Below, in pieces: positions 8,965 to 62,796 of a stretch of 64,000 nt of DNA (position 1 is the stretch's first letter; the number at the start of each line of letters is the position of its first letter). A model generated the notes under the pieces. The model made no database searches and was not told where the DNA came from. It saw only the letters and a program-made list of their open reading frames with translations. The translations under genes were made by a program, and so were the position numbers. The stretch covers positions 1 to 64,000 of the forward strand of contig NZ_ML660061.1 of the NCBI RefSeq assembly GCF_007004665.1. Direction: 5' to 3'. The stretch comes from Denitrobaculum tricleocarpae. Lineage in GTDB: Bacteria; Pseudomonadota; Alphaproteobacteria; Kiloniellales; Kiloniellaceae.

Positions 8965-9112
8965 GCTTCACTGCGTCCATTCGAGCGGGTAAATACTTGC
9001 CGGCGCATTGGCATCGGTATCCGGATTCTGCGCCGCCTGTTCGGACTTCAAAGGGTCACACCTCCACTGTTCCGCGATATCTTGATTCAGCCGGAAAGCG
9101 CGGTTCCGGGCA

Positions 9113-9126
9113 TTGATACGCATCAA
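9113..9126. promoter_or_regulatory. Exact FNR/Anr/FixK-type box in the MBL-ftsH divergent promoter
   Basis: TTGAT-ACGC-ATCAA matches the FNR-family consensus TTGAT-N4-ATCAA in all ten fixed positions. It is the main recognisable element in the 315-base region 8965-9279. Its centre is 160 bases before the ftsH ATG and 155 bases before the MBL start, so either direction or both may be controlled. I saw no convincing -10 element at the ideal spacing on either side. Confidence 0.75.
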
Positions 9127-9279
9127 TCATTCAACCTGGAGGAGTTGATGCAGGTCATAGCCGCCTTTATCGCCGAAGACATAGACTCTACCATAGTGAA
9201 GCTTACCCGGCAGGGCCGTCGCGTTTGAGGAAGGCGCGCGTCTCGCGGCTGACCAACCCGACTCAGAGGTGACGCCAGC

Positions 9280-12847: not shown

Positions 12848-13758
12848 CCGGCAGCCGCACCGCCCGGCTGCGCCTCGGTTTCCTGTCCTTCCTGCTGATC
12901 CTGGCCGGATCACAGGTGACCGCCGAGGCGGCGATCGTCGGCGAGGAGGAAAGCATCATCCTTCGCGACGGCGACACGCTCCTGGATCTGGCGGTCGCGG
13001 AGAGTCTGGGCTACGTGGAACTGCTGCTGGCAAATCCGGGGGTCGATCCCTGGATTCCGGCGGCGGGCACAGAGCTGCTTTTGCCAAAGCGCCATCTTCT
13101 TCCGGAAGCACCGCCCTCCGGCATCGTGATCAATCTGCCGGAGTTCCGCCTCTACTACTTTGCGCCGGATGGCGAAGAGGTGCTCACCTTTCCGATCGGC
13201 ATCGGACGCACGGCGCACGAAACGCCGAGCGGTCAGACCAGGATCGTGAAAAAACGCGCCGACCCGACCTGGATTCCAACGGCCTCCGCCCGGCGCGACG
13301 ACCCTGATTTGCCCGAATTCGTTCCGCCGGGACCCGACAATCCGCTGGGCGCCCATGCCTTGAACCTGGGCTGGCCGCGCTACGTCATTCACGGCACCAA
13401 CCGGCCTTACGGCATCGGGCGGCGGGTGAGCCGCGGCTGTATCCGCCTCTACCCCGAAGACATCGCCGCCCTCTTCGCGGCGGTGGAGCCCGGCACCGAG
13501 GTCACGATCCTGAACCAGCAGGTGAAAACCGGCTGGGTCGGCGACGAACTCTATCTGGAGGTTCATCCTACCCCGCTTCAGGCCGATGCCCTGGCGGCCA
13601 CCGGGCGGCTGACGCCCTATGATCCACCTGAAACCACGGCGCTGGTGCTGGAGGCCGCGAAAGGGCAGGCGGCACGCCTGAACTGGTCTGTGATCCGGCG
13701 GGTCACACAGGAACGCCGCGGCATTCCTGTCCGAATCACGATGCCGGAGTTGAACTGA
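12844..13758 (+). CDS. L,D-transpeptidase (YkuD domain) with LysM-like N-terminus
   Basis: This 304-residue exported protein starts with a signal peptide (hydrophobic stretch to about residue 27, TAEA). A short LysM-like region follows (GDTLLDLAVAESLGY, then PAAGTELLLPKR), then the YkuD domain from residue 95. Catalytic residues are visible as HGTN with H183 and SRGCIR with C199. Family members of the ErfK/YbiS type join peptidoglycan 3-3 cross-links or attach lipoproteins to it. The ATG overlaps the stop of the kinase fusion by four bases. The small lipoprotein encoded convergently 27 bases away ends in lysine, the residue through which Braun-type lipoproteins are attached, so it may be this enzyme's partner. 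Confidence 0.9.
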   Translation: MTGSRTARLRLGFLSFLLILAGSQVTAEAAIVGEEESIILRDGDTLLDLAVAESLGYVELLLANPGVDPWIPAAGTELLLPKRHLLPEAPPSGIVINLPEFRLYYFAPDGEEVLTFPIGIGRTAHETPSGQTRIVKKRADPTWIPTASARRDDPDLPEFVPPGPDNPLGAHALNLGWPRYVIHGTNRPYGIGRRVSRGCIRLYPEDIAALFAAVEPGTEVTILNQQVKTGWVGDELYLEVHPTPLQADALAATGRLTPYDPPETTALVLEAAKGQAARLNWSVIRRVTQERRGIPVRITMPELN

Positions 13759-13785
13759 CGTCAGGCGTGCCTGAAGCGGCTGCCC

Positions 13786-14073
13786 TTACTTCGTCAGCGA
13801 CTGCTGGAAGCTCCGGTCGGCCTTTGCATTTGCGGCACGGGCCTGTTCTTCGGCCAAAGCGGCGCGCTGTTCCGCCGCCGCCGCGCGCTGCGCGGCCTCT
13901 GCTGCAGACTTCTCTGCCTCCATGGCGCGCTGTTCCGCCATGCGGGCGGTTTCCGTTGCGGCAGTGACTTCACTGCGCAAGGTCGTCATTTCCGCATCGT
14001 TTGCGCAGGCACCGAGCAGAAACAGTGATGCAAGCGTGATCGCGAGGACGGACGAACGGCCTGTTTTGGTCAT
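13786..14073 (-). CDS. Alanine-zipper (Lpp/OprI-like) lipoprotein with C-terminal lysine
   Basis: This 95-residue protein has a lipoprotein signal with LGAC at residues 20-23 (Cys23 lipidated) and a mature part of 73 residues. Almost all of the mature part is an Ala-rich heptad coiled coil, and the last residue is Lys95. That layout is the one of Braun lipoprotein and Pseudomonas OprI, which are fixed to peptidoglycan through the terminal lysine. The start at 14073 follows AAGGAGAG and immediately precedes the signal; the frame is open further upstream but that part is unlikely. An exact FNR-type box is centred 86 bases before the start, a good distance for an activated promoter. Attachment to peptidoglycan is inference. 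Confidence 0.8.
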   Translation of the reverse strand: MTKTGRSSVLAITLASLFLLGACANDAEMTTLRSEVTAATETARMAEQRAMEAEKSAAEAAQRAAAAEQRAALAEEQARAANAKADRSFQQSLTK

Positions 14074-14152
14074 CGGACTCTCCTTTGATCGTGAACATCC
14101 AAAGCGGGGGGATCCGCTCTTTTCATTCAGACCTTTTTGCTGCAACGCCGCG

Positions 14153-14166
14153 TTGATTAAGATCAA
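14153..14166. promoter_or_regulatory. Exact FNR/Anr/FixK-type box in the lipoprotein-adh divergent promoter
   Basis: TTGAT-TAAG-ATCAA matches the FNR-family consensus exactly. The region 14074-14378 separates the lipoprotein gene (minus) and the alcohol dehydrogenase (plus). Placing the box at -41.5 would start the lipoprotein transcript near 14118, giving a leader of about 45 bases. For the dehydrogenase the leader would be about 180 bases. Nothing else in the region was recognised. Confidence 0.78.
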
Positions 14167-14378
14167 GGGCAGGGAACAAATCTGGTGCGGAAGGCTGTGA
14201 CATTTGTATGGCTTTTCGAAGCGTTTTCAGGGGGTAACTCACTCCTTTCCGTTGTGCCGGTGCGCCGGGGTCCATTCGGGTCTGACGGGACGCATTTGCT
14301 TTGCTAAGCTCGAACCAGAGGCCTGAAGCGGAAGTGCAAGCGGTTAAGCTAAGGCCATAAGAAAACGGGGAGAATTCT

Positions 14379-15425
14379 ATGCGCGCTGCGCTCTTTCACG
14401 AGTTTATGGGGCCGATCGGGGTGGAAAACGCGCCCGATCCCACGCCACCCGGCGACGGCGTCGTGCTGCGCGTTATGGCCAACGGTGTCTGCCGGAGCGA
14501 CTGGCACGCCTGGATGGGGCACGATCCCGATATCAAATCCCTGCCGCACGTTCCTGGGCATGAATGTTCGGGCATTATCATGGACGTAGGCCCCGAGGTG
14601 CGTAACTGGCGACCCGGAATGCGGGCGATCGTGCCGGTGGTCTCCGGCTGCGGGAAGTGCGGCTACTGCCACAGCGGCCAGCATCAGGTCTGTCCCGATC
14701 AGTATCAGCCCGGCTTTACCGGTTGGGGCGCCTTTGCCGAATACGTCGCCGTGCCCTACGCCGACGCCAATCTGGTCGAGCTCCCGGAAAGCCTTTCGTT
14801 TGAGGTCGGCGGCAGTATCGGATGCCGCTTTACCACCGCCTTCCGTGTCGTGGTTCAGCAGGGAAAAATAGAGCCTGGTCAATGGGTTGCGATCCATGGC
14901 TGCGGCGGCGTCGGGCTCTCGGCGGTGATGATCGCGGCGGCCATGGGGGCGAATGTGGTGGCGGTCGATATCGACGACGACCAGCTCGCGCTTGCCCGTG
15001 CTGCCGGCGCGGTGCAAAGCATCAACGCGCGGCAGACCAACGAAGTCGCCGAAGCGGTCCGCGATCTGACCGCAGGTGGCGCGCATGTCTCCGTCGATGC
15101 GCTCGGCAATCCTGAAACCTGCAAGAACTCGATCCTCTCCCTGCGCCGTCAAGGGCGCCACGTCCAGGTCGGACTTCTGCTGGGCGGTGAGAACAACCCG
15201 CCGCTGCCCATGGACCGGGTGATTGCCCACGAGCTGGAGATCGTCGGCAGTCACGCCATGGCGGGCCACACCTTCGGCAATATGATGGCCATGGTGACCT
15301 CGGGGAAAGTGGATCCCTCCAAACTGATCACGCGGAGTGTCGATCTGGCAGAGGGTGCCAAGGTCCTGGAGCAGATGGGAAATTTCACCGAAACAGGTGT
15401 GACCATGATCACGAATTTCTCGTGA
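14379..15425 (+). CDS. Zinc-dependent alcohol dehydrogenase (MDR family)
   Basis: This is a 348-residue medium-chain dehydrogenase. Likely catalytic zinc ligands are Cys38 (NGVCRSDWH) and His61-Glu62 (PGHECSG). The four structural-zinc cysteines Cys91, Cys94, Cys97 and Cys105 are all present. The nucleotide-binding GCGGVGLS motif lies near residue 174 and an acidic VDIDDD follows the second strand, which favours NAD over NADP. A GGGGAGAATTCT ribosome site precedes the ATG. The gene is divergent from the lipoprotein with an exact FNR-type box between, so a fermentative or low-oxygen role is plausible. The alcohol or aldehyde substrate cannot be read from the sequence. Confidence 0.9.
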   Translation: MRAALFHEFMGPIGVENAPDPTPPGDGVVLRVMANGVCRSDWHAWMGHDPDIKSLPHVPGHECSGIIMDVGPEVRNWRPGMRAIVPVVSGCGKCGYCHSGQHQVCPDQYQPGFTGWGAFAEYVAVPYADANLVELPESLSFEVGGSIGCRFTTAFRVVVQQGKIEPGQWVAIHGCGGVGLSAVMIAAAMGANVVAVDIDDDQLALARAAGAVQSINARQTNEVAEAVRDLTAGGAHVSVDALGNPETCKNSILSLRRQGRHVQVGLLLGGENNPPLPMDRVIAHELEIVGSHAMAGHTFGNMMAMVTSGKVDPSKLITRSVDLAEGAKVLEQMGNFTETGVTMITNFS

Positions 15426-15440
15426 AGCCCTGAGGTTTCC

Positions 15441-16097
15441 TTAGACCTGTTCCGGCGGTGGGGCGGAGGATTTCAGGAAGGCTTCGACTTCATCGCCGGT
15501 CACTTCGGCCGGGAAATGGGCCTGGGTGTTGATCGCCCGTACCAACTGCTTCTGGTACTCGTCACGGGGGATCTCCTGCACACCGAAACGGCTCAGGTGC
15601 GGTGTGTTGAACTGGGTGTCGAGCAGTTTATAGCCGCCTTTGCGGAGGCGCAGCGCCAGGTGCATCAGGGCGACTTTGCTGGCGTCGGAAACCCGGCTGA
15701 ACATGGATTCTCCGAAGAAGACCGCGCCCAGCGAGACTCCATAGAGGCCGCCGACCAGTTTGCCGTCCTGCCAGCACTCGACCGAATGCGCAAAGCCGCG
15801 GGCAAAGACCTGATTGTAGAGGGTCTCGATGGTCGGATTGATCCAGGTATCCGGCCGGCCTTCGGTCGGGGCGGCGCAGAGCCGAATGACCTGGTCGAAA
15901 GCCGTGTCACAACGTACTTCGAAGTCGCCCTGACGGATTTTCCGGCGCAGTTTGCGCGGGATATGGACGGCATCAAGCGGAAGCACGCCGCGCAGATCCG
16001 GGTCGATCCAATGCAGAACCGGATCGTCCCGGCTTTCCGCCATGGGAAAAACCCCGACGGTATAGGCTTTAAGCAGAAGGTCCGGCGTGAGCTCCAT
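15441..16097 (-). CDS. aat: Leucyl/phenylalanyl-tRNA-protein transferase
   Basis: This 218-residue enzyme adds Leu or Phe to N-terminal Arg/Lys of proteins, marking them for ClpAP through ClpS. Family signatures are plain: LTPDLLLKAYTVGVFPMAES at the start, HWIDPDLRGVLPL, a central WQDGKLVGGLYGVSLG, then FGESMFSR and DASKVAL, and finally LDTQFNTPHL. The ATG at 16097 fits the usual N-terminus; a TTG four codons upstream is the alternative. It is the last gene of the aroQ-accB-accC-aat run common in alphaproteobacteria, though 174 bases separate it from accC. Confidence 0.95.
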   Translation of the reverse strand: MELTPDLLLKAYTVGVFPMAESRDDPVLHWIDPDLRGVLPLDAVHIPRKLRRKIRQGDFEVRCDTAFDQVIRLCAAPTEGRPDTWINPTIETLYNQVFARGFAHSVECWQDGKLVGGLYGVSLGAVFFGESMFSRVSDASKVALMHLALRLRKGGYKLLDTQFNTPHLSRFGVQEIPRDEYQKQLVRAINTQAHFPAEVTGDEVEAFLKSSAPPPEQV

Positions 16098-16271
16098 GTC
16101 CGTCCGCAATTATCTACAAAAACCCGGGTTCTGTACAACGATCGCCCGGTGAGCTGAAGGCCGCTCTCAATTAAAATTGGTCGGTGTGACCAGAGTGCAA
16201 GAGGGACCTTCACCTCAGACCGCCGGATCAGCTACGCTGCTTTCGGCCTATCTTTTTGAACCAAAAGGCTT

Positions 16272-17615
16272 TTAGGCCTGTTCCGCGACAAATTTCTCTA
16301 ACCAGTGGATATCATAGTCACCATTGATGAACTCGCTGTCGACGATCAGTTTCTGATGCAGCGGCACCGTGGTGTCGATTCCGTCGATGACAAACTCTTC
16401 CAGGGCACGGCGCAAGCGCATCAGACATTCGTTCCGGGTTTGACCATGAACCACGAGCTTTGCGATCAGGCTGTCATAGTGCGGCGGTACGCGGTATCCC
16501 GCGTAGATGCCTGAGTCGACCCTGACACCCAGGCCGCCGGGCGCATGATAATCGGTCAGTGTTCCCGGTGAAGGCATGAAGGTCTGCGGATTTTCCGCAT
16601 TGATCCTGCATTCGATGGCATGGCCGAAAAAGGTAACGTCCTCCTGGGTGAGGCTCATCGGCAGACCTGCCGCGATCCGGATCTGTTCGCGGACGATATC
16701 GACCCCGGTGATCGCCTCTGAAATGGGATGCTCGACCTGCAGACGGGTATTCATCTCGATGAAGTAGAATTCACCGTTCTCGTAGAGGAATTCGATGGTC
16801 CCCGCCGACTTGTAGCCGAGCTTCTTCATGGCGTCGGTCGAGCGCTTGCCGATCCAGGCACGGGCTTCTTCATTCAGGGCGGGGGAAGGTGCTTCTTCGA
16901 GCAGCTTCTGATGCCGGCGCTGCAGGGAGCAGTCCCGCTCGCCGAGGTGAATGACGTTGCCGTGGCCATCGGCCATGAGCTGGATTTCGATGTGCCGCGG
17001 CCGGCCAAGGTATTTTTCCATGTAGACCGCTTCGTTGCCGAACGCGGCCTTGGCCTCGGTCCTGGCCAGTTGAACCGCCTGGCGCAGTTCTTCATCGTTG
17101 TTGGCGACCTTCATGCCGCGGCCGCCACCGCCGGCCGCTGCCTTGATCAGGACCGGATAGCCGATCTTATTGGCGACGGGCAGAGCCTCTTCCGCGGTCA
17201 TGATCTCACCGTCGGAGCCCGGTACGACCGGGATCCCGAGGTTGTCGGCGGCCTGCTTGGCCGCGACTTTGTCGCCCATCAGGTTGATGTGTTCCGGCGT
17301 CGGGCCGATAAAGACGAAACCGTGTTCCTCGACCATCGCCGCGAAATCGGCGTTCTCGGAGAGGAAGCCGACGCCAGGGTGGATGGCATCCGCGCCCGTG
17401 ATGGTGGCTGCGGAGAGGATGGCCGCGACGTTCAGGTAGCTGTCCTTGCTGGCCGGCGGCCCGATACAGACGCTTTCGTCAGCCAGACGCACGTGCATGG
17501 CGTCGGAATCCGCGGTCGAGTGGACGGCGACGGTCTGAATGCCCATTTCACGGCAGGCACGATGGATGCGGAGCGCAATTTCACCGCGATTTGCGATAAG
17601 AACTTTCTCAAACAT
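16272..17615 (-). CDS. accC: Biotin carboxylase subunit of acetyl-CoA carboxylase
   Basis: This 447-residue ATP-grasp enzyme carboxylates the biotin on AccB, the first half-reaction of malonyl-CoA formation. It begins [20 protein letters not shown], contains the glycine-rich [15 protein letters not shown] loop near residue 165, [12 protein letters not shown], and the catalytic [14 protein letters not shown] stretch near residue 290. The length is standard for AccC. It lies 17 bases after accB in the same operon and should form the cytosolic complex with it; the carboxyltransferase subunits are not in this window. Confidence 0.97.
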
Positions 17616-34728: not shown

Positions 34729-35265
34729 TTAGCTGTTAGCGGCCAAAGCGCCCTCATGCGCCAACAGCCAGGCTTTGCGTTTCAGCCCGCCGGCGTAACC
34801 CGTGAGCTTACCCGTGCTGCCGATGAGGCGGTGACAGGGTACGACAATCGACAAGGGGTTGCGCCCGTTGGCGGCACCTACAGCGCGCGGCGCATCGGGG
34901 CGTCCCAGCTTTTTTGCCATCTCGCCGTATTGCCAGGTCTGCCCGGCGGGGATGTGCCGCAACGCGTTCCAGACCTGCTGCTGAAACTCCGTGCCGCCAC
35001 TGTCGACGGGAAGCGCGTCGATCGCTGTCACGTCACCTTCCAGATAGGCCATCATCTTATCTGAGTGTCCGCCGGAGTTTTTGACCTTCAATAGTTCGTA
35101 GCGCCCAAAGCGTGCCGTCAGGTTTCGCTGCAGGCGGTCAAGGCAGTCGTCGAATTCGACGGCGCAGAGCGGGGGTGCCGCGTCTGCTTCACTGCCTTCG
35201 CTTAAGGTGACCAGGATAATGCCGCCGATGGGCGAGGGAATTTCATCGGTGAGAAGAGTGACCAC
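34729..35265 (-). CDS. ogt: Methylated-DNA-[protein]-cysteine S-methyltransferase
   Basis: This 178-residue suicide repair enzyme moves alkyl groups from O6-alkylguanine to its own cysteine. The active site reads [12 protein letters not shown], with the arginine-finger helix [21 protein letters not shown] and [10 protein letters not shown] before it. The N-terminal half is a short variable domain. It lies convergent to the HD gene with a 27-base gap. Nothing links it functionally to its neighbours. Confidence 0.93.
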
Positions 35266-35519
35266 GGCGGCTCCGGCTTTGTGCTTCCAATACGATGCTC
35301 AGAATTGCCGAGATTCAGCACCTCCGCAAACGCGATCGAGCTTATCGAAAGGGCACACTACCCGCTGGCTGGAAGCGGCGGTGATGATTTGTGGCGGTTT
35401 ACGCTTTTCTTGATCCACGGAGCTTCAAAACCGCGTTCCATATCAACAGTGTGCGGATTGGGAGACAGTGAATTTCGAGTCGGCCGGACCGTAGACTGAC
35501 GGAACGCAACGGCAAATAG

Positions 35520-35532
35520 TTGACAATGTTAA
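35520..35532. promoter_or_regulatory. Candidate MarR operator / -35 element before marR-rdhA
   Basis: TTGAC-AAT-GTTAA is a near palindrome (four of five arm positions match) and contains a consensus -35 hexamer TTGACA. It lies 23 bases before the chosen MarR start. It could be the autoregulatory operator. No -10 element at good spacing was found, so this is tentative. The rest of the region 35266-35555 shows nothing I recognise. Confidence 0.35.
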
Positions 35533-35555
35533 TTACTTTGCCGAAACTTGAGCGC

Positions 35556-36014
35556 ATGAAGCAAACGATCGCGCCACACCGGCTTCGGGACGGCCTGGGC
35601 TACCGGGTGTCGCGCCTGGCCCGGGTGATGGAACGGGATTTCGAACGCCGGCTTTCGGGACTCGGGATCACGCGCCTGATGTGGTGTGTGCTGCCGACAG
35701 TGGGCCTGGAAGGGATCGTGCGGCCATCCGAGATTGCCGGTCATATCGGCGTCGATCGCACGGCTTTATCGCGGGTGCTCCGTGAACTGGAGGCCAAAGG
35801 TCTGGTTCGACGCGATAAAGATGGGCGCGATGGACGTTCGACCCATGTGACCCTGACCGAAGAGGGTACGCGTTGCCTGGACGCGGCGCTGCCGCAATCC
35901 ATGGGCACGACCAATCACTTCAGCAGCAAACTGAGTGGCGAGGAGGTCGACATCTTCCGGCACTTGATCGACAAACTGCTCGCGGAGGAAGAGGGCGCCT
36001 TGCCGGGCATCTGA
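35556..36014 (+). CDS. MarR-family regulator next to the reductive dehalogenase
   Basis: This protein of about 152 residues has a MarR winged helix: LPTVGLEGIVRPSEIAGHIG, then DRTALSRVLRELEAKGLVRR as the recognition helix and DKDGRDGRSTHVTLTEEG as the wing. Dimerisation helices lie at both ends. The ATG at 35556 gives a typical MarR start (MKQTIAPHRLRDGLGY); an ATG at 35526 would add ten residues, and neither has a good ribosome site. It precedes the dehalogenase by 65 bases on the same strand. MarR proteins often sense phenolic compounds, which fits a regulator of halophenol reduction, but this is inference. Confidence 0.85.
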   Translation: MKQTIAPHRLRDGLGYRVSRLARVMERDFERRLSGLGITRLMWCVLPTVGLEGIVRPSEIAGHIGVDRTALSRVLRELEAKGLVRRDKDGRDGRSTHVTLTEEGTRCLDAALPQSMGTTNHFSSKLSGEEVDIFRHLIDKLLAEEEGALPGI

Positions 36015-36079
36015 GGCTGGGCTCTCTGCAGGTGTGCAGGGCTGCTGTCACGGCAGGCGGATCAAAAGGGACGAGATCT

Positions 36080-39000
36080 ATGCGGTTGTTTTCCTATAAA
36101 AACAGGCCGGTCCACCTGGGGCCGTATCCGCTCGAGCGTTTGAAACGGCAAGAGGCGCAGCCGGATCTCTTCGACGTCCCTGTCATGCAGCCTCTCGCGT
36201 TTCTCGACGATGAAAGTCCGGAGAGCCTCGCCAATCCCATGGCGCTCTTTATCGGAATGCTGGACGCGATCAGGGACGGCCTGATCGCAGAGAAACGCTC
36301 GGAAATTCCATCCAGTCTCGAGGAGCGCAGCGATCATCTTAAAGCCGCGGGCTACTACTTCGATGCGACGCAGGCCGGTATCTGCGCCTTGCCGAAGGCG
36401 GCATTTCTCGAGCAGTCGTTCCGCAACCCAGTGCTGGATCAACTGCTCGCACAACTGGAGGGCAGCCAGCCCAAGACGCTGGCATCCGGCATCGATGTGG
36501 TGATGGCGGACGTGAAAGAGTCCGCGAAAGCGAAGCCTGCGCCGATGGACCATCACGGCTATGCCGTGGTCTATCTGGTCGAACATCCGCGTGATCCGGA
36601 CCCGGAGGAGCCCGGATCGGACTGGATCACCGGGACCCTGGAGCAGCGCTCCGCGGTCAGAGCGGCGGAAACCGCCGTTGTGCTGGCGAACTACCTTCGG
36701 ATTCTGGGCTTTGAAGCGCGCGCCCATACGGCCAGTTCTTCGGATGTGGATCTGGGGAAGCTGGCGCTGGCGGCTGGGCTGGTCGAAAAAAAGAAACGCG
36801 CCGACGGGTCCATTGGACTGAGCAATCCCTATGTCGGCGAACGCTACAGTCTCGCGGCCATCACCACGACGCTCGAGCTGGCACCCGATCTGCCGCTCGC
36901 GCCGCGTGGTTTGGGCGATCGCTGGCGTTCGCACGGTCCGGCCTGGTGGCTCGGCAAAGGCAGCTTCAAAAGCCTGTTTAACCGAACCCCTTACCGCAAG
37001 CGGCCCTTCGCAAAGGGCGCTCTGCCTTTTGAGAAGATCAGGCAGCAGGAAGAACCCACCACCTTCATCGACTCTGCCCGTGTGCCCCGTGTGCCCAAGC
37101 GCACGGATATGTTTGCCCGTGCGCTCTTCGGTGACATGGGCAAGGTGGTGCAGGAGGGCTCGAAAAACGGTTGTTACGTTCTGAAAAACCCGATGGGTTA
37201 TTGCTCCCGGCGGGCCTTGGGCGCGCTGATTCTGTTACAGGACGGGCAGCCGGCGGCGGAAATCGCGAAGTCTGCGCAAGATTCCCAGTGCAACGCCGAC
37301 AACGTGAAAGCTTCCCTTTACTACCTCGGGGCCGATGCCGTCGGACTCTCTCCCGCGCCCGACTGGACCTACTACTCCCACGACGCCGCCGGGAACGAAA
37401 TCGAGCCCTATCATAAGAACGCGATTTCGATCCTGATCGACCAGGGCCACGAGACCATGGACGCGACCAGCGGGGACGACTGGATTTCCGCCGCGCAGTC
37501 CATGCGCGCCTATCTGCGCTCTTCCCTGATCGGGGGCATTGTGGCCGAGCAGATCCGCCGCCTGGGTTACGGTGCGCGGGTGCATTCCGTTCTGGACGGT
37601 GAGGTCCTCCAGCCACCTTTGCTGCTGCTGTCCGGCCTGGGCGAGGTCAGCCGGATCGGTGAGGTGATCCTGAACCCCTACCTGGGACCGAGACTCAAAT
37701 CGGGCGTCGTGACCACTGACATGCCCTTTGTCTATGACAAGCCGATCAATTTCGGTATGCAGACCTTCTGCGAGAACTGCAACAAATGTGCGCGCGAGTG
37801 CCCGGCCGGGGCGATCACCGCCGGTCCCAAGGTCATGTTCAACGGCTACGAAATCTGGAAGTCGGATTCGGAACGCTGCGCGCGTTATCGGATCACCAAC
37901 CTGCTGGGCAGCATGTGCGGCCGTTGCATGAAGACCTGTCCCTGGAACCTCGAGGGGCTGTTCAAAGAGGCGCCCTTCCGCTGGCTGGCGATGCATTATC
38001 CCAAGGCGGCCAAATGGCTGGCCAGGCTCGACGACAGGGTCGGCAACGGCCAGATCAATAAAGTGAAAAAGTGGTGGTGGGACCTGGAACTGCAGCCGGA
38101 CGGCCGTTACATCCCGGCCAAGGAAACCAACGCCCGGGCCTTGAGCCTCGATCTGGATTTGAAACCCGAAGACCAAACCCTCGCGGTTTACCCCGCGCAC
38201 CTGGCGCCACCGCCCTATCCCGTGCCTTTCCCGATGGACCGGGAAGCCGGTCTGGAGGCTTTTCAGGCTCTTCTCAGTCCGGAGGAGCATAAGGCGCGCC
38301 TGGCAAAGGGAGAGACCGAGGACTTGGTGCCGCAATTCCGGATGCCGGAGGGACCCCCGCCGGTGATGCCGGTGACGCTGTCGAAGAAGCGCGTGATGGC
38401 GAAGGACATTGCCTGCTACGAATTTGTCGCGCCCGATGGTGCTGACCTGCCGTCGTTCGATGCAGGCGCGCACATCGATGTGGTGGTGGCTCCTGAATAC
38501 TTCCGGCAATACAGCCTCGCCGGCGATCCGGCAGACCGGTCCAAATACGTGATTGGTGTCCTGGAGGAAAAAGAAGGCAAGGGGGGATCGAAACTGATGC
38601 ACCGGATCTTTGAGGAGGGCCGAAAGGTTTTCATCTCACCGCCGCGCAATCATTTTCCCTTGGCCGATAGCGCGGGCAAAACCCTGTTGATCGGCGGCGG
38701 TATCGGCGTGACGCCCCTGATCGCCATGGCGCACCAACTGCATGCCAAGGGCGCCGACTTTTCTCTCTTTTACTGCGCGCGCCAGCGTGAGAGGGCAGGA
38801 TTTGTCGAAGATCTGGAGCAGGCGCCATGGAGGGACCGCGTCCGCTTTTTCTTTTCCGCCGAGGGCAAACGCGCAGATCTTGACGACCTGCTCGCGGGTT
38901 ACGGCAGCGGTGATCAGCTCTATACCTGTGGTTCGTCAAACTTCATGGACGCGGTCTTCGCAGCGGCAGAAAAGAATATCTGGCCCGAGGATGCGCTGCA

Positions 39001-39310
39001 CCGGGAGTACTTTTCCGTGCCGGATGACGCCGAATATGAAAACCACGAATTTACAGTGCGTCTTGCGAATGACGGCCGCAGTTTTGACGTTCCGGCCGAG
39101 AAGTCCATTGTCGACGTGCTGGGTGCGGCGGGTATTCATATCGATGTGAAGTGTTCCGAGGGCATCTGCGGCGTTTGTGTGGCCCGCTACACGGAAGGCG
39201 ATGTCGAGCACCGGGATTTTGTGCTGGGCAAAAAAGAACGTGTCGAAAAGATGATGACCTGTTGTTCGCGCGCCCGCGAAGAGGGCGGTGAGGTTGTTTT
39301 AGATCTCTGA
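36080..39310 (+). CDS. Self-sufficient reductive dehalogenase: RdhA-type cobalamin domain fused to FMN/NAD/2Fe-2S reductase
   Basis: This 1076-residue fusion has two parts. Residues 1 to about 640 are a cobalamin-dependent reductive dehalogenase, with an N-terminal half that resembles the central half (both have a GLGE/LGF-type VVLANYLRILGFEAR or VAEQIRRLGYGARVHS helix-strand), then LLSGLGEVSRIGEVILNPYLGP, and two 4Fe-4S motifs: C564-N-C567-C570-C574-P and C613-C616-C620-P. From about residue 762 a phthalate-dioxygenase-reductase-like module follows: RQYSLAGDP (FMN), LLIGGGIGVTPL (NAD) and a 2Fe-2S domain with C1025, C1030, C1033 and a late MTCC. The layout matches the aerobic, catabolic NpRdhA/BhbA group that dehalogenates halophenols with NADPH. 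No signal peptide is present, so it is cytoplasmic. The ATG at 36080 follows AAGGGACGAG. Confidence 0.9.
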   Translation: MRLFSYKNRPVHLGPYPLERLKRQEAQPDLFDVPVMQPLAFLDDESPESLANPMALFIGMLDAIRDGLIAEKRSEIPSSLEERSDHLKAAGYYFDATQAGICALPKAAFLEQSFRNPVLDQLLAQLEGSQPKTLASGIDVVMADVKESAKAKPAPMDHHGYAVVYLVEHPRDPDPEEPGSDWITGTLEQRSAVRAAETAVVLANYLRILGFEARAHTASSSDVDLGKLALAAGLVEKKKRADGSIGLSNPYVGERYSLAAITTTLELAPDLPLAPRGLGDRWRSHGPAWWLGKGSFKSLFNRTPYRKRPFAKGALPFEKIRQQEEPTTFIDSARVPRVPKRTDMFARALFGDMGKVVQEGSKNGCYVLKNPMGYCSRRALGALILLQDGQPAAEIAKSAQDSQCNADNVKASLYYLGADAVGLSPAPDWTYYSHDAAGNEIEPYHKNAISILIDQGHETMDATSGDDWISAAQSMRAYLRSSLIGGIVAEQIRRLGYGARVHSVLDGEVLQPPLLLLSGLGEVSRIGEVILNPYLGPRLKSGVVTTDMPFVYDKPINFGMQTFCENCNKCARECPAGAITAGPKVMFNGYEIWKSDSERCARYRITNLLGSMCGRCMKTCPWNLEGLFKEAPFRWLAMHYPKAAKWLARLDDRVGNGQINKVKKWWWDLELQPDGRYIPAKETNARALSLDLDLKPEDQTLAVYPAHLAPPPYPVPFPMDREAGLEAFQALLSPEEHKARLAKGETEDLVPQFRMPEGPPPVMPVTLSKKRVMAKDIACYEFVAPDGADLPSFDAGAHIDVVVAPEYFRQYSLAGDPADRSKYVIGVLEEKEGKGGSKLMHRIFEEGRKVFISPPRNHFPLADSAGKTLLIGGGIGVTPLIAMAHQLHAKGADFSLFYCARQRERAGFVEDLEQAPWRDRVRFFFSAEGKRADLDDLLAGYGSGDQLYTCGSSNFMDAVFAAAEKNIWPEDALHREYFSVPDDAEYENHEFTVRLANDGRSFDVPAEKSIVDVLGAAGIHIDVKCSEGICGVCVARYTEGDVEHRDFVLGKKERVEKMMTCCSRAREEGGEVVLDL

Positions 39311-39318
39311 TTTTCAGG

Positions 39319-39347
39319 CTTCGGATCCTGCAACCGGAGACTTTTTT
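39319..39347 (+). terminator. Probable Rho-independent terminator after the dehalogenase
   Basis: CTTCGG (39319-39324) pairs with CCGGAG (39334-39339) with one G-T pair, and TTTTTT follows at 39342-39347. The stem is short, so strength is uncertain. Confidence 0.5.
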
Positions 39348-39369
39348 GAAAGTTCACACTTCTCGCAGG

Positions 39370-39393
39370 TTTTTGGCTGAATTCAACCAAAAA
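39370..39393. repeat. 24-bp near-perfect dyad in the AT-rich spacer before the PEP-CTERM gene
   Basis: TTTTTGGCTGAA and TTCAACCAAAAA are inverted copies with one mismatch and no loop, centred on GAATTC. It lies in the 384-base spacer 39311-39694, which is much richer in A and T than the genes around it and contains no gene that I could support. The dyad could be a regulator site or part of a transcription end. Confidence 0.55.
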
Positions 39394-39694
39394 GATACAC
39401 TTTTTCGAACTGTAAAACTCCTCTGCTTCTTCTGAACCTCACAGCCTAAACAGGTGTTTCTATGAACCGAATTTTTAAGGGTTTCCGATTGCAGGTGCGC
39501 CAAAATACTGAAAATGCATGATTATTTGTAAGAAGGCGGATTTTTCGACGAATTTTAAATTAATTTTACGCCTCGTTAATCTTTTCCTTGATAGAACAAA
39601 GATAAGGACAAAAACAACTTTGGAGGTTTTTCGCGCCGAAGCTTGATTCGACGCGCTTTGACCTAAATAAAACCATAGATAAGGAGCGACAGGC

Positions 39695-40333
39695 GTGAAG
39701 AAAATTTACGCATTTGCGATTTCGACGTTCGTCGGCGTTGCTGCGACATTCGGATTTACCTCCAACGCTCATGCCACAGTCATTCTCGATATTGTTGATG
39801 GACAACTGGTCGGTGCTCAGAATGTCAATGTTAGTGGGACGCTATACGATGTTTCGTTCACCGACGGCACTTGCATCGGTCTTTTCTCCGGTTGCGACAA
39901 CGCAGCGTCGGATTTCACCTTTACATCTTTCCAAACTGCGTTTGAGGCGGCGACCGCGCTGCTTGAGCAGGTATTTCAGGATACAGCCGAGGGCCTGTTC
40001 AGTTCTGATCCAGAGCTGACACGAGGGTGCGAAGGCCTTGCTGTTTGCTGGTCCTCGATTCCTTATCAAGTCACCAGCGCAAACAGGTTCGAAGCAATGA
40101 TCGCGCGAAACTTTGCCGACAATGCTGTTGATTTTGCGTCAGGATCCTTCACGCAACCATCTCTGGATTACTTTACGTTTACCAGCGACACCTTTGCGGT
40201 CTTCTCTCTGGCTTCTGGCGGCCCGATCCAAGTTGACGAGCCCGGAACCCTGTTGCTCTTCGGTGTTGCGCTGCTCGGTCTGGGAGTTGCCAGCCGCCGA
40301 GGTCGGCGTCACGAGGAAACTTCATCCACATAA
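39695..40333 (+). CDS. Secreted protein with PEP-CTERM-like sorting tail
   Basis: This 212-residue protein starts at GTG 39695, with AAGGAG upstream. A signal peptide (residues 1-28, ending SNAHA) is followed by a Thr/Phe-rich, cysteine-containing domain without known motifs, then the C-terminal tail VDEPGTLLLFGVALLGLGVA followed by SRRGRRH. This is the PEP-CTERM layout (PEP motif, hydrophobic span, basic end), with DEP where PEP is usual. Such tails are recognised by an exosortase for surface display, often linked with exopolysaccharide. No exosortase gene lies in the window. The gene and its upstream spacer are more AT-rich than the neighbours, which hints at transfer. Confidence 0.8.
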   Translation: MKKIYAFAISTFVGVAATFGFTSNAHATVILDIVDGQLVGAQNVNVSGTLYDVSFTDGTCIGLFSGCDNAASDFTFTSFQTAFEAATALLEQVFQDTAEGLFSSDPELTRGCEGLAVCWSSIPYQVTSANRFEAMIARNFADNAVDFASGSFTQPSLDYFTFTSDTFAVFSLASGGPIQVDEPGTLLLFGVALLGLGVASRRGRRHEETSST

Positions 40334-58270: not shown

Positions 58271-60508
58271 CTAGTGAATCAGGCGCTTTTGCTCACCCTC
58301 ATCCTGCGGCACGGCTTGAGATGCGTGAACGCGATGCTGCGGGAAAACCAGTTCGACGGCCGTGCCTTCGCCCGGGACACTGTGCAGGCGCAGTTCGCCA
58401 CCGTGACGCTCAATCAGGGATTTGGTTAAGGGTAAACCAAGGCCGGTTCCCGGTGGAACCTGTTCCAGCCCGTTCTTTACCTGCCCGAATGGTTCCATCA
58501 CCGTCTTCACATCGTTGGGGGCGATGCCCACCCCGGTGTCGGCGACGGCCAGTCTCAGATCACCGTTGCTCTCGAGTCTGGCGCTGATCTTGATATGCCC
58601 CTGCGCCGGGGTAAACTTGATGGCATTGGACACCAGATTGAGAAGCATCTGCTTGAGTGCGCGGCGGTCTGCATCGAGGTGCGGGAAGTCCGCAGGTACG
58701 GCATTGAGCAGTTGCAGGCGTCCGGTGGTGAGTTTGGGTTCCATCAGCTTGTGGACTTCGTCGACGAAGTCGCTGATGTCGATCTCCTCGATATCCAGCT
58801 CGAATTTGCCGGCCTCGACTTTGGAGAGATCCAGCAGGTCGTTGATCAGGCTCAGCAGGTGCTCGGCACTGTCATGGATATTCTCTGAATACTCTTTGTA
58901 AGTCGGGGTGAGTTTTCCGAAAATCTCGAGTTGCATTGCCTCGGAGAAGCCCAGAATGGCATTCATCGGTGTCCGTAGCTCGTGGCTCATATTGGCGAGA
59001 AATTCGCTCTTTGCCCGGTTGGCGTTTTCGGCCTCTTCCTTCGCTTCCAGAAGCGCCTGTTCAACCTTTTTCGTTTCTCCGATATCGACGATGACCCCGT
59101 CCCAGACGATATCGCCGTTGTCGCGTTTTCGCGGGATGCCGAAGGAGCGCGCCCACCGGGCCTTGCCGGATTGTCCGATGATTCTGAATTCATGCGCGTG
59201 CGGGTCAAGGTTGCTTGCGGATTCATCAATGGCCCAAATCAGGGAAGAGATATCCTGAGGGTGCACGACCTGGGTCAGATCCCCGATCACCGGACGATGC
59301 CCTTCGAGCGCCAGTCCGAATTCATTTCGGGCACCCGCGCGCAGGAACGGATAGCTGATGGTTCCATCCGCACTCTTGACCCGGCGGTAGAGTAGACCCG
59401 GGATGTTCGCCGCAATACTGCCCAGGCGCTCCATGCTCTCCTGACGCGTTCGTTCCGCCAGCGCCTCATGGTCATCCTGGATTTCCTGCGCCATGGCATT
59501 GAAGCCCCGCGCTAGGGTTTTGAACTCAATCGGCGCAAGCGCCGAGAGTCCCGGGACACGCCGGTCGCGATTCCCGGCTGCAAAGTCCTGAGCCGCCTCG
59601 ACCACAGCTTCGACCGGATGAGTCAGCATGCCCGAGAGTGTCCAGCCCAGGATGGCCGCTGCGGCGAGCCCGACCGCGACAATCGCCAAGACCGCGTTCT
59701 GAATCCTGTCGGACTGGCCTGTCAGTTCACTGATCGGCTGGGGGACCATGATGCCCCAACCAACGTTCTCTGCGACGGAAAAACCGGAAATCATCTCTGC
59801 ATTCAGAGCCGGCGATACAAATCGCGTGATTCCGGTCTCGCCATTCATCATGCGTTTAACCGGCTCCAGCGCCGAGAGGTCACGCATCTCCCGCTGCCAG
59901 TTCTCCATCGGATGAGCGATGACCCGCCCCTGGGCATCGACAATCGCTGCATGGCCCTGTTCGCCAAAGGCAATCGATTTCTGTACCTTCACGATATAGT
60001 CGGTGGCGAGTTCGCCTATAGCCAGGCTCTGGTTCGGGAGCGGTTTTAACAGATAAATTGTCGGTTCACCGGCTTCGTTCGGCAAGACGCCACTGAAGCG
60101 AAGGTTTGAGTTGGCTACTTCGCTGCGTGTCTTTTCGATCAGTTGTTTCAGACTTCCCGAAATCTCATTGTGCGAAAGGATCTGATCGTAGGTGATTTGA
60201 TGCCGGTCGGAGACAATATAGAAGGATCTGAACTCCAGACTCTTGGCAAAGGTCTCAAGAGCGGCTGAACTCCGCCCGCCTTCCGCGGACTCGATGAAAT
60301 AGTCGAACGCCGCTTCCACGTCGAAAAGATAATGCTCAAGGCTCGAGGTGATGTTCTGTGCCAGAAGCAGGTGCTTTTCGGTGGCAGATTGAATTTCATT
60401 GGGGAGTGCGTTCTTCTCAACCCAGGACCCGAGCAACAGCACCGGAACCGTCGCCACAAGTGTGAATGCGAAGGCCAGAAGATATCTTAGTCTAAGCGTG
60501 CCCCACAT
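58271..60508 (-). CDS. Membrane sensor histidine kinase (Cache-HAMP-PAS-HisKA-HATPase)
   Basis: This kinase of about 745 residues has a first membrane helix (residues 5-26), a periplasmic Cache-like sensor with [19 protein letters not shown], a second helix near residues 265-290, a HAMP region, and a PAS domain near residues 375-490. The HisKA domain contains [19 protein letters not shown] with the phosphorylated His, and the HATPase_c domain has N ([12 protein letters not shown]), G1 ([10 protein letters not shown]) and G2 (GTGLGLPL) boxes. No receiver domain or response regulator is adjacent. ATG 60508 starts directly at the first helix; a TTG 22 codons upstream is an alternative. The signal is unknown. 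Confidence 0.9.
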
Positions 60509-60749
60509 TGCGCGACCAATAACGAAAAAAAGTTTATCGCGGGCATAAAAGAACTGTGCCCTGAAAAAGAACAAACTCAGTTTTCCGTATATGGCATTGT
60601 ATGGGAAGCAAAATCTGGCGACGGTGCAGCTGAATTCCAGAAATCGGATTGTAAAATGCGTGTGTACAACCGGATTTCAGGTCGCACTGCATGATTTTTG
60701 CTGGACCAAGTATGAATTACTTAGCACCGCCGCAGATTGAGCAAGAAGT

Positions 60750-61211
60750 TTACTTTGTCGCGATGTCGGTGAAGTTGTTTAGCGCCCCCGAGATTTTCTC
60801 GAGAACCTTGGTTTTTTCGCTCAGGCCATGCCGCGTACTCAGATAGGCCGGGTCGTTGTAAACCAGAAGCACCTTGCCATCCGAGTCTTCATAGGCCAAC
60901 GCCTTGAGCGGAAGGTCGATTCCCGCCGTCTGGTTGGTCTGCATGAGTGGTGTGCCAAGTTTCGGGTTGCCGAAGATCAGAAGTTCGGTCGGACGCAGAT
61001 CCAGATCCACTTTCGCGGCCCCGGCTGTATGGTCGACACGGGCAAAGATTGTGATGCCCTTCGATTTGAGCGTCTCTTCGAGCAGGCTGATCGTTTCGCT
61101 CACAGAACGGGTGCTCTCCTTGACGACCAGTCCGTTTTCGGCGGCGGCTGAGAGCGGAGCAGAGGTGATAAGCCCAAGCGAAAAGGCTATCGTGAGAAAA
61201 AGCCGGTGCAT
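60750..61211 (-). CDS. Exported DUF302 protein
   Basis: This 153-residue protein has a signal peptide (residues 1-23, ending LSAAAE) and a single DUF302 domain: SVSETISLLEETLKSKGITIFARVDHTAGA across residues 34-65, then RPTELLIFGNPKLGTPLMQ and LPLKALAYEDSDGKVLLVYN. These blocks define the family, whose function is not settled. AGGA precedes the ATG. It lies 241 bases upstream of the histidine kinase on the same strand and might be its neighbour only by chance. Confidence 0.87.
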   Translation of the reverse strand: MHRLFLTIAFSLGLITSAPLSAAAENGLVVKESTRSVSETISLLEETLKSKGITIFARVDHTAGAAKVDLDLRPTELLIFGNPKLGTPLMQTNQTAGIDLPLKALAYEDSDGKVLLVYNDPAYLSTRHGLSEKTKVLEKISGALNNFTDIATK

Positions 61212-61356
61212 TTTTATGTATCCTGTAATCTAACAATAACTGCGGTGATCATAGCTATAGGTTCGACCATCAGCGGTGACATGTTTGTGAAGCGCCAACG
61301 AATTGGGCTTTGCAGGGGCATTGAGGTTCGGACTTGGTCAGTTTAGGATATTGTTT

Positions 61357-62796
61357 GTGAACGTTCCAGTTTCTCTTGCGGGTACAGAATCTGCCCGTCT
61401 TCCCGAGCCTTTGAGAATCAGAGCCTTTGATGGCCTGCAGGGCAAACTCTTACTGCGTCCCTGGTACGACTGGTGCGGGGTTCGCGCTATCGTAAACTGG
61501 TATTTCCCGCTTTCGCGCGCCTGGGCGGCAGCCCTGGAGGCAGATGGCGATCTCCAGAGTTTTAATGATCAACTTGGCACCGGTTTTCAGGACTCGGGCC
61601 GGATACGCTCGGCACTGGCACGCACGGCGCAGGCGGACAAGACCTATCACGAGCGTCAAACACTCTGGGAAGAGCGGTTTTTTAGCGAGGCTGCCGTCGC
61701 CGAGGGTGAGTTGGTCAGGCTTGAAATAGAGCGGCAGTCAGCGTCAAAACACCGGATGATGCGCCGGAAGGAATTTCTGCCCTGGCGCCGGAAATTTCCA
61801 AAGCTGCACTGGGCAGTGCCTCTGAAAGACGATGTAGAGCAGCATCATGGCGAGCGGCTGGCCCATCCGGCTTCGGCTTTCGAAGTGCCCGCGTTCCCCG
61901 GGTTCGAAGTGTCCAAGGGTCTGAGCGGCGCCTGGGATGCGATGTCACCCTACCGCCAATACTGGCTTCGCTTTCCCTCACTGGCGTCGGGGGAAGAGAG
62001 CGCTGTCATGGCGAGCCCGGGCGAGAAAGGCAAAGCCTGGGCCAAGGTCTATGAGCCTGAGCAGGGTGGCGAGGGCGCACCCTGTCTGATTTTTCTCCAC
62101 GGAATCGGCATGGAGACGGACTTGTGGGGTGAACTTGCCGACCCGGTCAATGCGCTGACCAGGCAAGGATTTCGTGTCATTCGTCCTGAAGCACCCTGGC
62201 ATGCGCATCGCCGGCTGCGCGGACGCTTTGGCGGTGAACCGGCGATCGCGCAGGGGCCTCTTGGTTTCATCGAACTCTTTCATGCCTGGGTCACGGAAGT
62301 TGCGCAGTTGATCGAATGGGCGCGCAACAACGGCTCCAGTCAGGTCGCGGTCGGCGGCTTGAGCCTGGGAGCTTTGACGGCTCAACTTGTCGCGACTCAA
62401 GCGCGCAACTGGCGCCCTGAGCAACGTCCAGATCATCTGCTTCTGATTACAACCAGTGAAGATCTGCTGGATATTGCACTGCACGGCAGCATGGCAAGCC
62501 TCTTGGAGATGCCGAAACACTTCGCCGCCGCGGGGTGGGCTGAGGCCGACCTCGCCCGCTGGACGCCTTTATTGGAGCCACACGGTGATCCCGTCATGGA
62601 GGCTGCGCGCATCGTCGTTCTGCTCGGGCGGGCGGATGATCTAACGCCGGTCAGGGGCGGCGAGAGCCTCCTGCGGCGTTGGAAAGTCCCGGAAAACAAT
62701 ATCTTCAGGCCAAACCAGGGGCATTTCTCGGCTTCTCTCGGGCTCTATCGTGATAATGCGGTTTTGCAGCGGGTTGTGGCCAATATGACAGGCTGA
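61357..62796 (+). CDS. Large alpha/beta-hydrolase-fold protein of unknown function
   Basis: This protein of about 479 residues has an N-terminal region of some 250 residues without known motifs, rich in Trp, Arg and aromatic residues (LLRPWYDWCGVRAIVNWYFPLSRAW split over residues 32-58). An alpha/beta-hydrolase core follows: CLIFLHGIGME as the oxyanion strand, GGLSLGALTAQ as the nucleophile elbow, VLLGRADDLTP with the acid, and NQGHFSASLG with the catalytic His. GTG 61357 has AGGA at good distance; TTG 61303 is the alternative. It lies just before mnmA. Substrate unknown. Confidence 0.75.
   Translation: MNVPVSLAGTESARLPEPLRIRAFDGLQGKLLLRPWYDWCGVRAIVNWYFPLSRAWAAALEADGDLQSFNDQLGTGFQDSGRIRSALARTAQADKTYHERQTLWEERFFSEAAVAEGELVRLEIERQSASKHRMMRRKEFLPWRRKFPKLHWAVPLKDDVEQHHGERLAHPASAFEVPAFPGFEVSKGLSGAWDAMSPYRQYWLRFPSLASGEESAVMASPGEKGKAWAKVYEPEQGGEGAPCLIFLHGIGMETDLWGELADPVNALTRQGFRVIRPEAPWHAHRRLRGRFGGEPAIAQGPLGFIELFHAWVTEVAQLIEWARNNGSSQVAVGGLSLGALTAQLVATQARNWRPEQRPDHLLLITTSEDLLDIALHGSMASLLEMPKHFAAAGWAEADLARWTPLLEPHGDPVMEAARIVVLLGRADDLTPVRGGESLLRRWKVPENNIFRPNQGHFSASLGLYRDNAVLQRVVANMTG

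Follow-up and report, generated by a model that had tools for sequence, protein, structure and literature searches.

A putative marR-rdhA unit for self-sufficient reductive dehalogenation in Denitrobaculum tricleocarpae and its congeners

Introduction

The window analyzed here, i.e., a stretch of 64,000 nucleotides from Denitrobaculum tricleocarpae (contig NZ_ML660061.1), contains a gene, rdhA, whose product is predicted by every sequence feature tested to be a self-sufficient catabolic reductive dehalogenase (RdhA), in which the RdhA part is fused to a phthalate dioxygenase reductase (PDOR)-type domain. Upstream of it lies marR, a gene for a MarR-family regulator. We hold with good confidence that the two genes constitute a self-regulated dehalogenation unit, the product of which is used by the unlinked pobA and pcaGH genes. 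RdhA most likely removes bromine (or iodine) from phenol-type compounds at the expense of cellular NAD(P)H, and it would most likely serve as the inducible first step on ortho-halophenols such as bromo-hydroxybenzoates, feeding a 4-hydroxybenzoate catabolism encoded at unlinked loci.

Self-sufficient RdhAs are promising dehalogenases for clean-up under aerobic conditions and are relevant to the natural bromine cycle, and little was found on what controls their expression. MarR-type control is known for respiratory rdh genes of Dehalococcoides. The passages of PMC10463259 seen gave no MarR control of an rdhA gene, and what the MarR protein BhbR2 regulates is the operon of a 3-bromo-4-hydroxybenzoate hydroxylase rather than an rdhA (PMC12016517). 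The enzyme type is already known; as judged by sequence comparison, the new details would be the regulator, its DNA target and the retention of the pair in the genus. Neither a conserved marR-operator-rdhA unit nor its fixation in a genus was found described in the open literature searched, most subscription papers not being searchable; in the open papers searched, reductive dehalogenases co-occurred with Kiloniellaceae in one paper, on sediment communities, and with Pelagibius in none. A defined operator would provide a handle for finding the natural inducer, and hence the natural substrate, in several bacterial families.

Results

Domain organization and catalytic residues of RdhA

An initial annotation of this DNA described one frame with two 4Fe-4S motifs, a LLSGLGEVSRIG core and a fused reductase, and that description held in each part. 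The rdhA gene is a single intact open frame from its ATG to its stop codon (Table 1), with LLSGLGEVSRIG present, and its product scores 193.8 bits against the reductive dehalogenase model TIGR02486 (cut-off 160.35, E 6.2e-57). Residues 158-742 plus 1-104 aligned by phmmer to NpRdhA (4ras, E 1.3e-158), while the C-terminal residues 766-1076 matched the phthalate dioxygenase reductase 2pia (E 5.2e-59). Fer2 (PF00111) was recognized in this reductase at E 4.3e-11, and its plant-type 2Fe-2S cysteines are C1025, C1030, C1033 and C1061. A second TIGR02486 match is weak (39.4 bits), and residues 1 to ~300 also align to NpRdhA; this region is a probable degenerate duplicate of the RdhA core, a duplication known for catabolic RdhAs (PMC10463259). 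The putative duplicate, the catalytic core and the reductase stand in one chain, which aligns end to end with the BhbA protein of Comamonas.

Table 1. Features of the marR-rdhA locus in window coordinates
Feature	Position	Strand	Evidence
marR, MarR-family regulator, 152 aa	35556..36014	+	PF01047 E 3e-10
Predicted MarR operator, 19-bp imperfect palindrome TAGTTGACAATGTTAATTA	35517..35535		Matrix and exact-pattern search
rdhA, predicted self-sufficient catabolic reductive dehalogenase, 1076 aa	36080..39310	+	TIGR02486, phmmer, selection
Probable vestigial N-terminal copy of RdhA cobalamin-binding core	36317..36895	+	Second weak TIGR02486 match
Catalytic cobalamin/4Fe-4S core, residues ~300-742, borders approximate	36980..38305	+	NpRdhA alignment, residue map
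Phthalate-dioxygenase-reductase-type domain (flavin, NAD(P)H, plant-type 2Fe-2S)	38375..39307	+	2pia, PF00111, cysteines
Y478	37511-37513	+	= NpRdhA Tyr426
K540	37697-37699	+	= NpRdhA Lys488
R604	37889-37891	+	= NpRdhA Arg552

The active-site Tyr, Lys and Arg are present as Y478, K540 and R604, and the alignment to NpRdhA likewise places equivalents of its Ser422, Met423 and Phe291 in RdhA. In NpRdhA, the counterparts of these residues act in binding and proton transfer (PMC7565698). The eight 4Fe-4S cysteines, encoded within 37769 to 37939, lie at 564/567/570/574 and 600/613/616/620. All eight, together with Y478, K540, R604, S474 and M475, are invariant in 29/29 aligned rows, BhbA among them. 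By homology, base-off cobalamin would be bound in the RdhA core.

The twin-arginine motif is absent from RdhA and its most hydrophobic 19-residue stretch averages 1.46 (Kyte-Doolittle), so that no signal or membrane segment is apparent, in agreement with the earlier claim that a twin-arginine translocation (Tat) signal is missing. The claim that no rdhB anchor adjoins rdhA was likewise borne out: just 3' of the gene (+ strand, 39310-39695) no rdhB-sized open reading frame (ORF) was found, the single + strand ORF of >=40 aa there being one of 42 aa at 39518, and the rest of the genome was not searched for rdhB. A respiratory role was rejected because there is neither a Tat signal nor an adjoining rdhB.

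The nearest relatives of RdhA are RdhA-reductase fusions, not non-dehalogenating Fe-S proteins. A non-dehalogenating class III cobalamin enzyme, resembling epoxyqueuosine reductase (QueG) or performing another reduction, would account for the weak TIGR00276 match of RdhA (22.2 bits against a cut-off of 200), yet it is scarcely credible given the TIGR02486 score above cut-off, the end-to-end similarity to BhbA and the presence of all NpRdhA catalytic residues. Moreover, the genome has a separate QueG, matched by TIGR00276 at 457.8 bits, and with these two scores a QueG identity for RdhA was rejected.

The marR gene and its predicted operator

As the initial annotation had it, a MarR gene neighbors rdhA. 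It stands directly upstream on the same strand, with 65 bases between the marR stop and the rdhA start, and in-frame upstream starts at 35520, 35526 and 35538 are also possible. The pairing recurs outside the window: tblastn with the window MarR against genome contigs found MarR directly upstream of rdhA in 12/24 relatives, and MarR proteins of 36-50% identity occupy this position in 10 loci outside the genus. Among six annotated plasmid loci, marR is co-directional with rdhA in Aminobacter, opposite in Jannaschia and farther off in Yoonia, and the annotated rows of the remaining 3/6 hold no MarR gene.

At the marR start lies a palindrome with a consensus near TARTTGACA-N-TGTCAAYTA. It was found there in 12/12 MarR-bearing relatives, in Aminobacter and in the window, and in 0/12 relatives without MarR, a count for which the pattern was drawn by eye from these same loci and in which two of the MarR-less relatives (L013 and L026) cover <200 bases upstream of rdhA. 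In a held-out test, a symmetrised matrix was built from nine marR-rdhA loci outside the genus, the window excluded; the nine include L019 (titled Nocardioides marinus) and L023 (titled only Alphaproteobacteria). Over the 64-kb window this matrix ranked 35517-35535 first at 30.2 bits, with the runner-up at 9.0. In the other held-out loci (L004, L005, L006 and L033) the operator scored 29.1-31.8 bits and the next site <=10.4, and the background, i.e., 10 of the 17 loci lacking a co-directional MarR, peaked at 17.7 bits. Exact-pattern search gave one site per genome in 4/4 genomes of the genus and 0 for the reversed-pattern control. These results suggest that 35517-35535 is likely the sole target of MarR. 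The matrix scan found no second site between marR and rdhA, which fits one transcript.

A sigma-70 scan of 35200-39750 found 3 sites against 1.4 expected, all on the - strand, and no + strand site at marR. The TTGACA inside the palindrome was considered as a -35 box and rejected, the annotated Aminobacter marR starting one base past the palindrome. Repression is commoner than activation in the MarR family, and MarR would probably repress marR-rdhA. The PDB relatives of the window MarR include, among the matches listed, HosA (E 1.6e-10) and PcaV (E 9.5e-6), both sensors of hydroxybenzoate-type ligands. BhbR2, the MarR of the 3-bromo-4-hydroxybenzoate operon, is an activator that binds TTGATT-N5-AATCAA (PMC12016517). 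A variant palindrome, TGATTACCGCTGGTAACTA, was observed in the plasmid of Jannaschia sp. M317 (L035, 7945-7963; 13.4 bits) between the oppositely oriented marR and rdhA, and may be this operator altered in its core.

Selection, genomic slot and origin

The genus was sampled as the genome of the window plus three congeners (L004, L005 and L006). The length of rdhA is identical in the four orthologues, and the ratio of nonsynonymous to synonymous differences per site (pN/pS) was 0.080-0.122 for rdhA and 0.16-0.24 for marR in 6/6 pairs each; these ratios are rough, because the more distant pairs are almost saturated at synonymous sites. For the window versus L005, pN was 0.041 in the catalytic core, 0.099 in residues 1-300 and 0.119 in residues 746-1076. 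These values read as purifying selection on the marR-rdhA pair, with rdhA apparently a working gene rather than a relic.

At E 1e-100, rdhA matches were found in 5/61 genomes of the order: 4/4 in the genus, 0/19 in the rest of the family and 1/38 in the rest of the order, the last over residues 144-761 only. This order-level match (G016, 45%) was not used as a relative of the same build. The genomic surroundings are conserved. L004 and L006 keep prfB to glnE around marR-rdhA, and L005 keeps the HD gene to glnE, its prfB being outside the covered stretch or moved. In g5, a related genus of the family, 7/8 genomes carry prfB and the EamA gene 1.2 to 4.5 kb apart. Neither marR nor rdhA was matched on this stretch, and the ferritin-like gene, bcp and glnE come next, as in the window; the sequence of the remaining genome stops short of prfB. 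On the corresponding stretch of 2 of 9 g4 genomes and one g2 genome, those examined, marR and rdhA were likewise not found. The slot of marR-rdhA is thus variable, within a backbone that is conserved. Because the pair is present in 4/4 genus genomes and the slot lacks it in related genera, it was, most simply, gained once before the sampled genus members split.

The rdhA tree was built from 22/24 contig loci (minus L023 and L025), 5/6 plasmid loci (minus L036, in two pieces), L031 and the window. The genus forms one clade (100/100), and alpha-, beta- and gammaproteobacteria are all represented among its relatives, a distribution consistent with older horizontal transfer. Placement of the genus clade beside Aminobacter and Salinarimonas is poorly supported, and long branches meet at BhbA. 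The L019 rdhA (Nocardioides marinus DP1N28-1 record, 8001-11189) groups with Leisingera and was not counted as actinobacterial; contamination or mislabelling of the record, or else a very recent transfer, is the probable cause.

In the window, the flanks of marR-rdhA tested with Pfam are a metallo-beta-lactamase fold, an HD protein and an EamA transporter; prfB, MGMT, a ferritin-like gene, bcp and glnE were named from their translations alone. Downstream of rdhA, at 39695-40333 (+), lies a gene for a secreted-looking protein that Pfam does not match at 1e-4 and whose tail we take to resemble the PEP-CTERM motif. Its homologue adjoins rdhA in L005 (54% identical), and not in L004 or L006.

Catabolic, uptake and cofactor genes in the host genome and in relatives

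The genome of the window carries two pobA genes above cut-off, one adjoining pcaG and pcaH and the other adjoining genes for a tripartite ATP-independent periplasmic (TRAP) transporter. The row with pcaG and pcaH lies on contig C1 (336001-356000, genes at 8084-16329 of that stretch, - strand) and also holds a siderophore-type lysine/ornithine N-monooxygenase, a DAO-type oxidase, a VanA-like Rieske oxygenase, a lipocalin-like protein and a class III aminotransferase. Such a combination of aromatic-catabolism and siderophore-type genes is unusual. The genome probably makes its own cobalamin, since cobN and bluB score above cut-off.

In several relatives, rdhA itself lies near such genes: pobA and an extradiol dioxygenase in Nitratireductor OM-1, pobA (646 bits, cut-off 538.7) and a class III extradiol dioxygenase in Pseudomaricurvus, ligA / protocatechuate 4,5-dioxygenase and an extradiol dioxygenase in Comamonas 7D-2, and TRAP transporters in Aminobacter, Yoonia and Salinarimonas. 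In other relatives, Emcibacter, Jannaschia and Ruegeria TM1040 among them, no ring-hydroxylating, ring-cleavage or TRAP gene was recognized beside rdhA. The TRAP binding proteins encoded near rdhA in Aminobacter and Salinarimonas are 52-55% identical to each other, and for both of them the best match in the genome of the window (13 hits each, E<=1e-10) is the binding protein beside pobA.

A tryptophan-halogenase-family protein (PF04820, 428.2 bits) is encoded on contig C15 at 60121-61530 (- strand), its nearest solved kin being the tryptophan 5-halogenase 8fov (E 2.4e-100), and this one genome may encode enzymes for forming as well as breaking carbon-halogen bonds. This gene would allow for a self-made substrate, i.e., the bacterium halogenating its own aromatics and RdhA recycling or resetting them, which we regard as very unlikely: the halogenase products would probably be halo-indoles, not ortho-halophenols, and the gene is on another contig and has no exact-pattern MarR site beside it.

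Discussion

We propose the following mechanism for the marR-rdhA unit. MarR bound to the 19-bp palindrome would block marR-rdhA as long as it has bound no hydroxy-aromatic acid, whether halogenated or plain. RdhA would be soluble and cytoplasmic, NAD(P)H would reduce the flavin of its C-terminal reductase, and electrons would pass from flavin to 2Fe-2S, to the two 4Fe-4S clusters and to base-off cobalamin. The ortho-halogenated phenol would be held by K540, R604 and S474, the reduced cobalt would take the halogen, and Y478 with K540 would donate a proton, giving the dehalogenated phenol and halide. The product, most likely 4-hydroxybenzoate or a relative, would be consumed by the pobA and pcaGH enzymes encoded elsewhere.

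The initial annotation offered stand-alone detoxification or salvage as the role of RdhA. Detoxification, in which toxic algal, sponge or sediment bromophenols are disarmed and the products exported unused, was not established, and we rate it as rather unlikely. No catabolic gene was recognized beside rdhA in the window, as had been noted before, the same immediate neighbors recur in three congeners, and exact-pattern search found few MarR targets; regulation by a MarR protein with few targets is frequent among detoxification units. The downstream EamA transporter gene belongs to the backbone and is also present in the related genus without rdhA. The two pobA genes and pcaGH make salvage or catabolism fit as well or better, and relatives that link rdhA to ring-cleavage or uptake genes speak against detoxification as well. 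The marine origin suggested for the aromatics fits the relatives, one congener having come from a marine sponge (PMC9860996), an origin that would also suit detoxification. We prefer the use of halogenated hydroxybenzoates because of the two pobA genes, pcaGH, the linkage of rdhA to catabolic or TRAP genes in relatives and the best TRAP match beside pobA, and by our judgement their uptake and use is favored over pure detoxification.

Several observations weigh against the proposed unit. No catabolic gene was recognized beside rdhA in this genus, the pobA route is drawn across contigs, and the TRAP binding proteins match at no more than 29-31% identity. When the operator pattern was allowed one mismatch, three further sites were found in the genome of the window against one in the reversed control. 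Two of the three score 8.0 and 10.9 bits; the third, the palindrome CCATTGACAGAGTCAATCA at C8:128325-128343, scores 18.1 bits, just above the best background of 17.7. It overlaps the end of a phosphotransferase system (PTS) enzyme I gene, lies ~180 bases ahead of an ORF whose translation, as read by eye, resembles adenosylhomocysteinase, and is possibly a second MarR target or chance. AlphaFold models were made of the full RdhA (19-row alignment; mean predicted local distance difference test, pLDDT, 66.5; predicted template modelling score 0.56; residues 559-631 <50) and of the core alone (21-row alignment, mean pLDDT 50.5); in both, pLDDT drops under 50 across the Fe-S part and over much of the cobalamin part, too low for judging the cobalamin pocket geometry. 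Foldseek with the full-length model placed NpRdhA top (E 2.5e-44) but at a root-mean-square deviation of 12-13, so the match serves as a fold label only. The marine Roseobacter enzyme Ros_A3X954 is reported to be highly oxygen sensitive and lost its activity in oxygen (PMC13101508), and for this reason air tolerance of the window RdhA is not assumable. Finally, the pocket departs from that of NpRdhA at positions 344, 361, 366, 367 and 504 of RdhA (F290->M, K307->S, F310->Y, P311->V and N452->V, respectively), and because several pocket residues differ the substrate may differ from that of NpRdhA.

The K307 replacement bears on a further possibility, the same chemistry acting on brominated tyrosine-derived, hydroxyphenylacetate-type or iodinated phenols rather than hydroxybenzoates. 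In one bound pose NpRdhA K307 salt-bridges the benzoate group at the cavity entrance (PMC7565698), and it aligns with S361 of RdhA. In addition, JtRdhA of Jhaorihella thermophila acts on 3-bromo-4-hydroxyphenylacetate as fast as on dibromohydroxybenzoate and takes iodophenols (PMC10463259). Such a substrate is a serious contender, which we consider less likely than not, as pobA and pcaGH in the genome and the relatives in which rdhA is linked to pobA or a dioxygenase point to hydroxybenzoates.

Position 471, equivalent to NpRdhA A419 in the lining of the second-halogen pocket, is Ala in 5/19 rows, namely the genus and Salinarimonas, and Cys in 11, Val in 2 and Ser in 1; the Ala471 of the genus was not found in most fused relatives. 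As a tentative extension of the proposed unit, which we consider less likely than not, marR-operator-rdhA may be a minimal portable unit for sensing and dehalogenation with a dedicated, near one-target regulator. It would have been acquired a single time into a variable chromosomal site of the genus, with no uptake or ring-cleavage genes linked to it, and have become a fixed core trait for life amid naturally brominated aromatics, and Ala471 may alter its halogen or substrate range.

Among known systems, the likeness to NpRdhA and BhbA drawn in the initial annotation stands for BhbA and only in part for NpRdhA. BhbA (Comamonas sp. 7D-2 plasmid pBHB, WP_015585978), which debrominates 3,5-dibromo-4-hydroxybenzoate (as told in PMC13101508), has the same domain order end to end at 52.3% identity over 1068 aligned positions, with catalytic residues and clusters as in the window RdhA; pocket positions 344/366/471 are F/S/S in BhbA and M/Y/A in the window RdhA. 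Unlike rdhA of the window, the BhbA gene lies on a plasmid, next to genes for protocatechuate 4,5-dioxygenase and for a tripartite tricarboxylate binding protein, and its locus has no annotated MarR neighbor (the plasmid gene table is incomplete) and no operator-matrix match. NpRdhA (Nitratireductor pacificus; 4ras, 6zxu) shares the RdhA part alone with the window protein and, unlike it, has no reductase domain and needs separate redox partners (PMC10463259). JtRdhA, also marine, is likewise an RdhA-reductase fusion with a duplicated core and no Tat signal; with NADPH, and also in air, it removes Br and I from ortho-halophenols, with no removal of Cl or F in the compounds tested (PMC10463259). 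Its NADPH-driven activity was measured (PMC10463259), whereas the window RdhA is likened to it by build, from sequence alone. Ros_A3X954 (Roseobacter sp. MED193) is, like the window RdhA, a Tat-less catabolic reductive dehalogenase, and converts 2,6-dibromophenol to 2-bromophenol (PMC13101508). The nearest aligned rows outside the genus are the RdhAs of the Aminobacter sp. SS-2016 plasmid and of Salinarimonas rosea, each 65.2% identical, the latter already in a published RdhA tree (PMC10463259). In both, TRAP genes adjoin rdhA or marR, unlike in the window, and Aminobacter shares with the window a marR-rdhA pair with the same operator.

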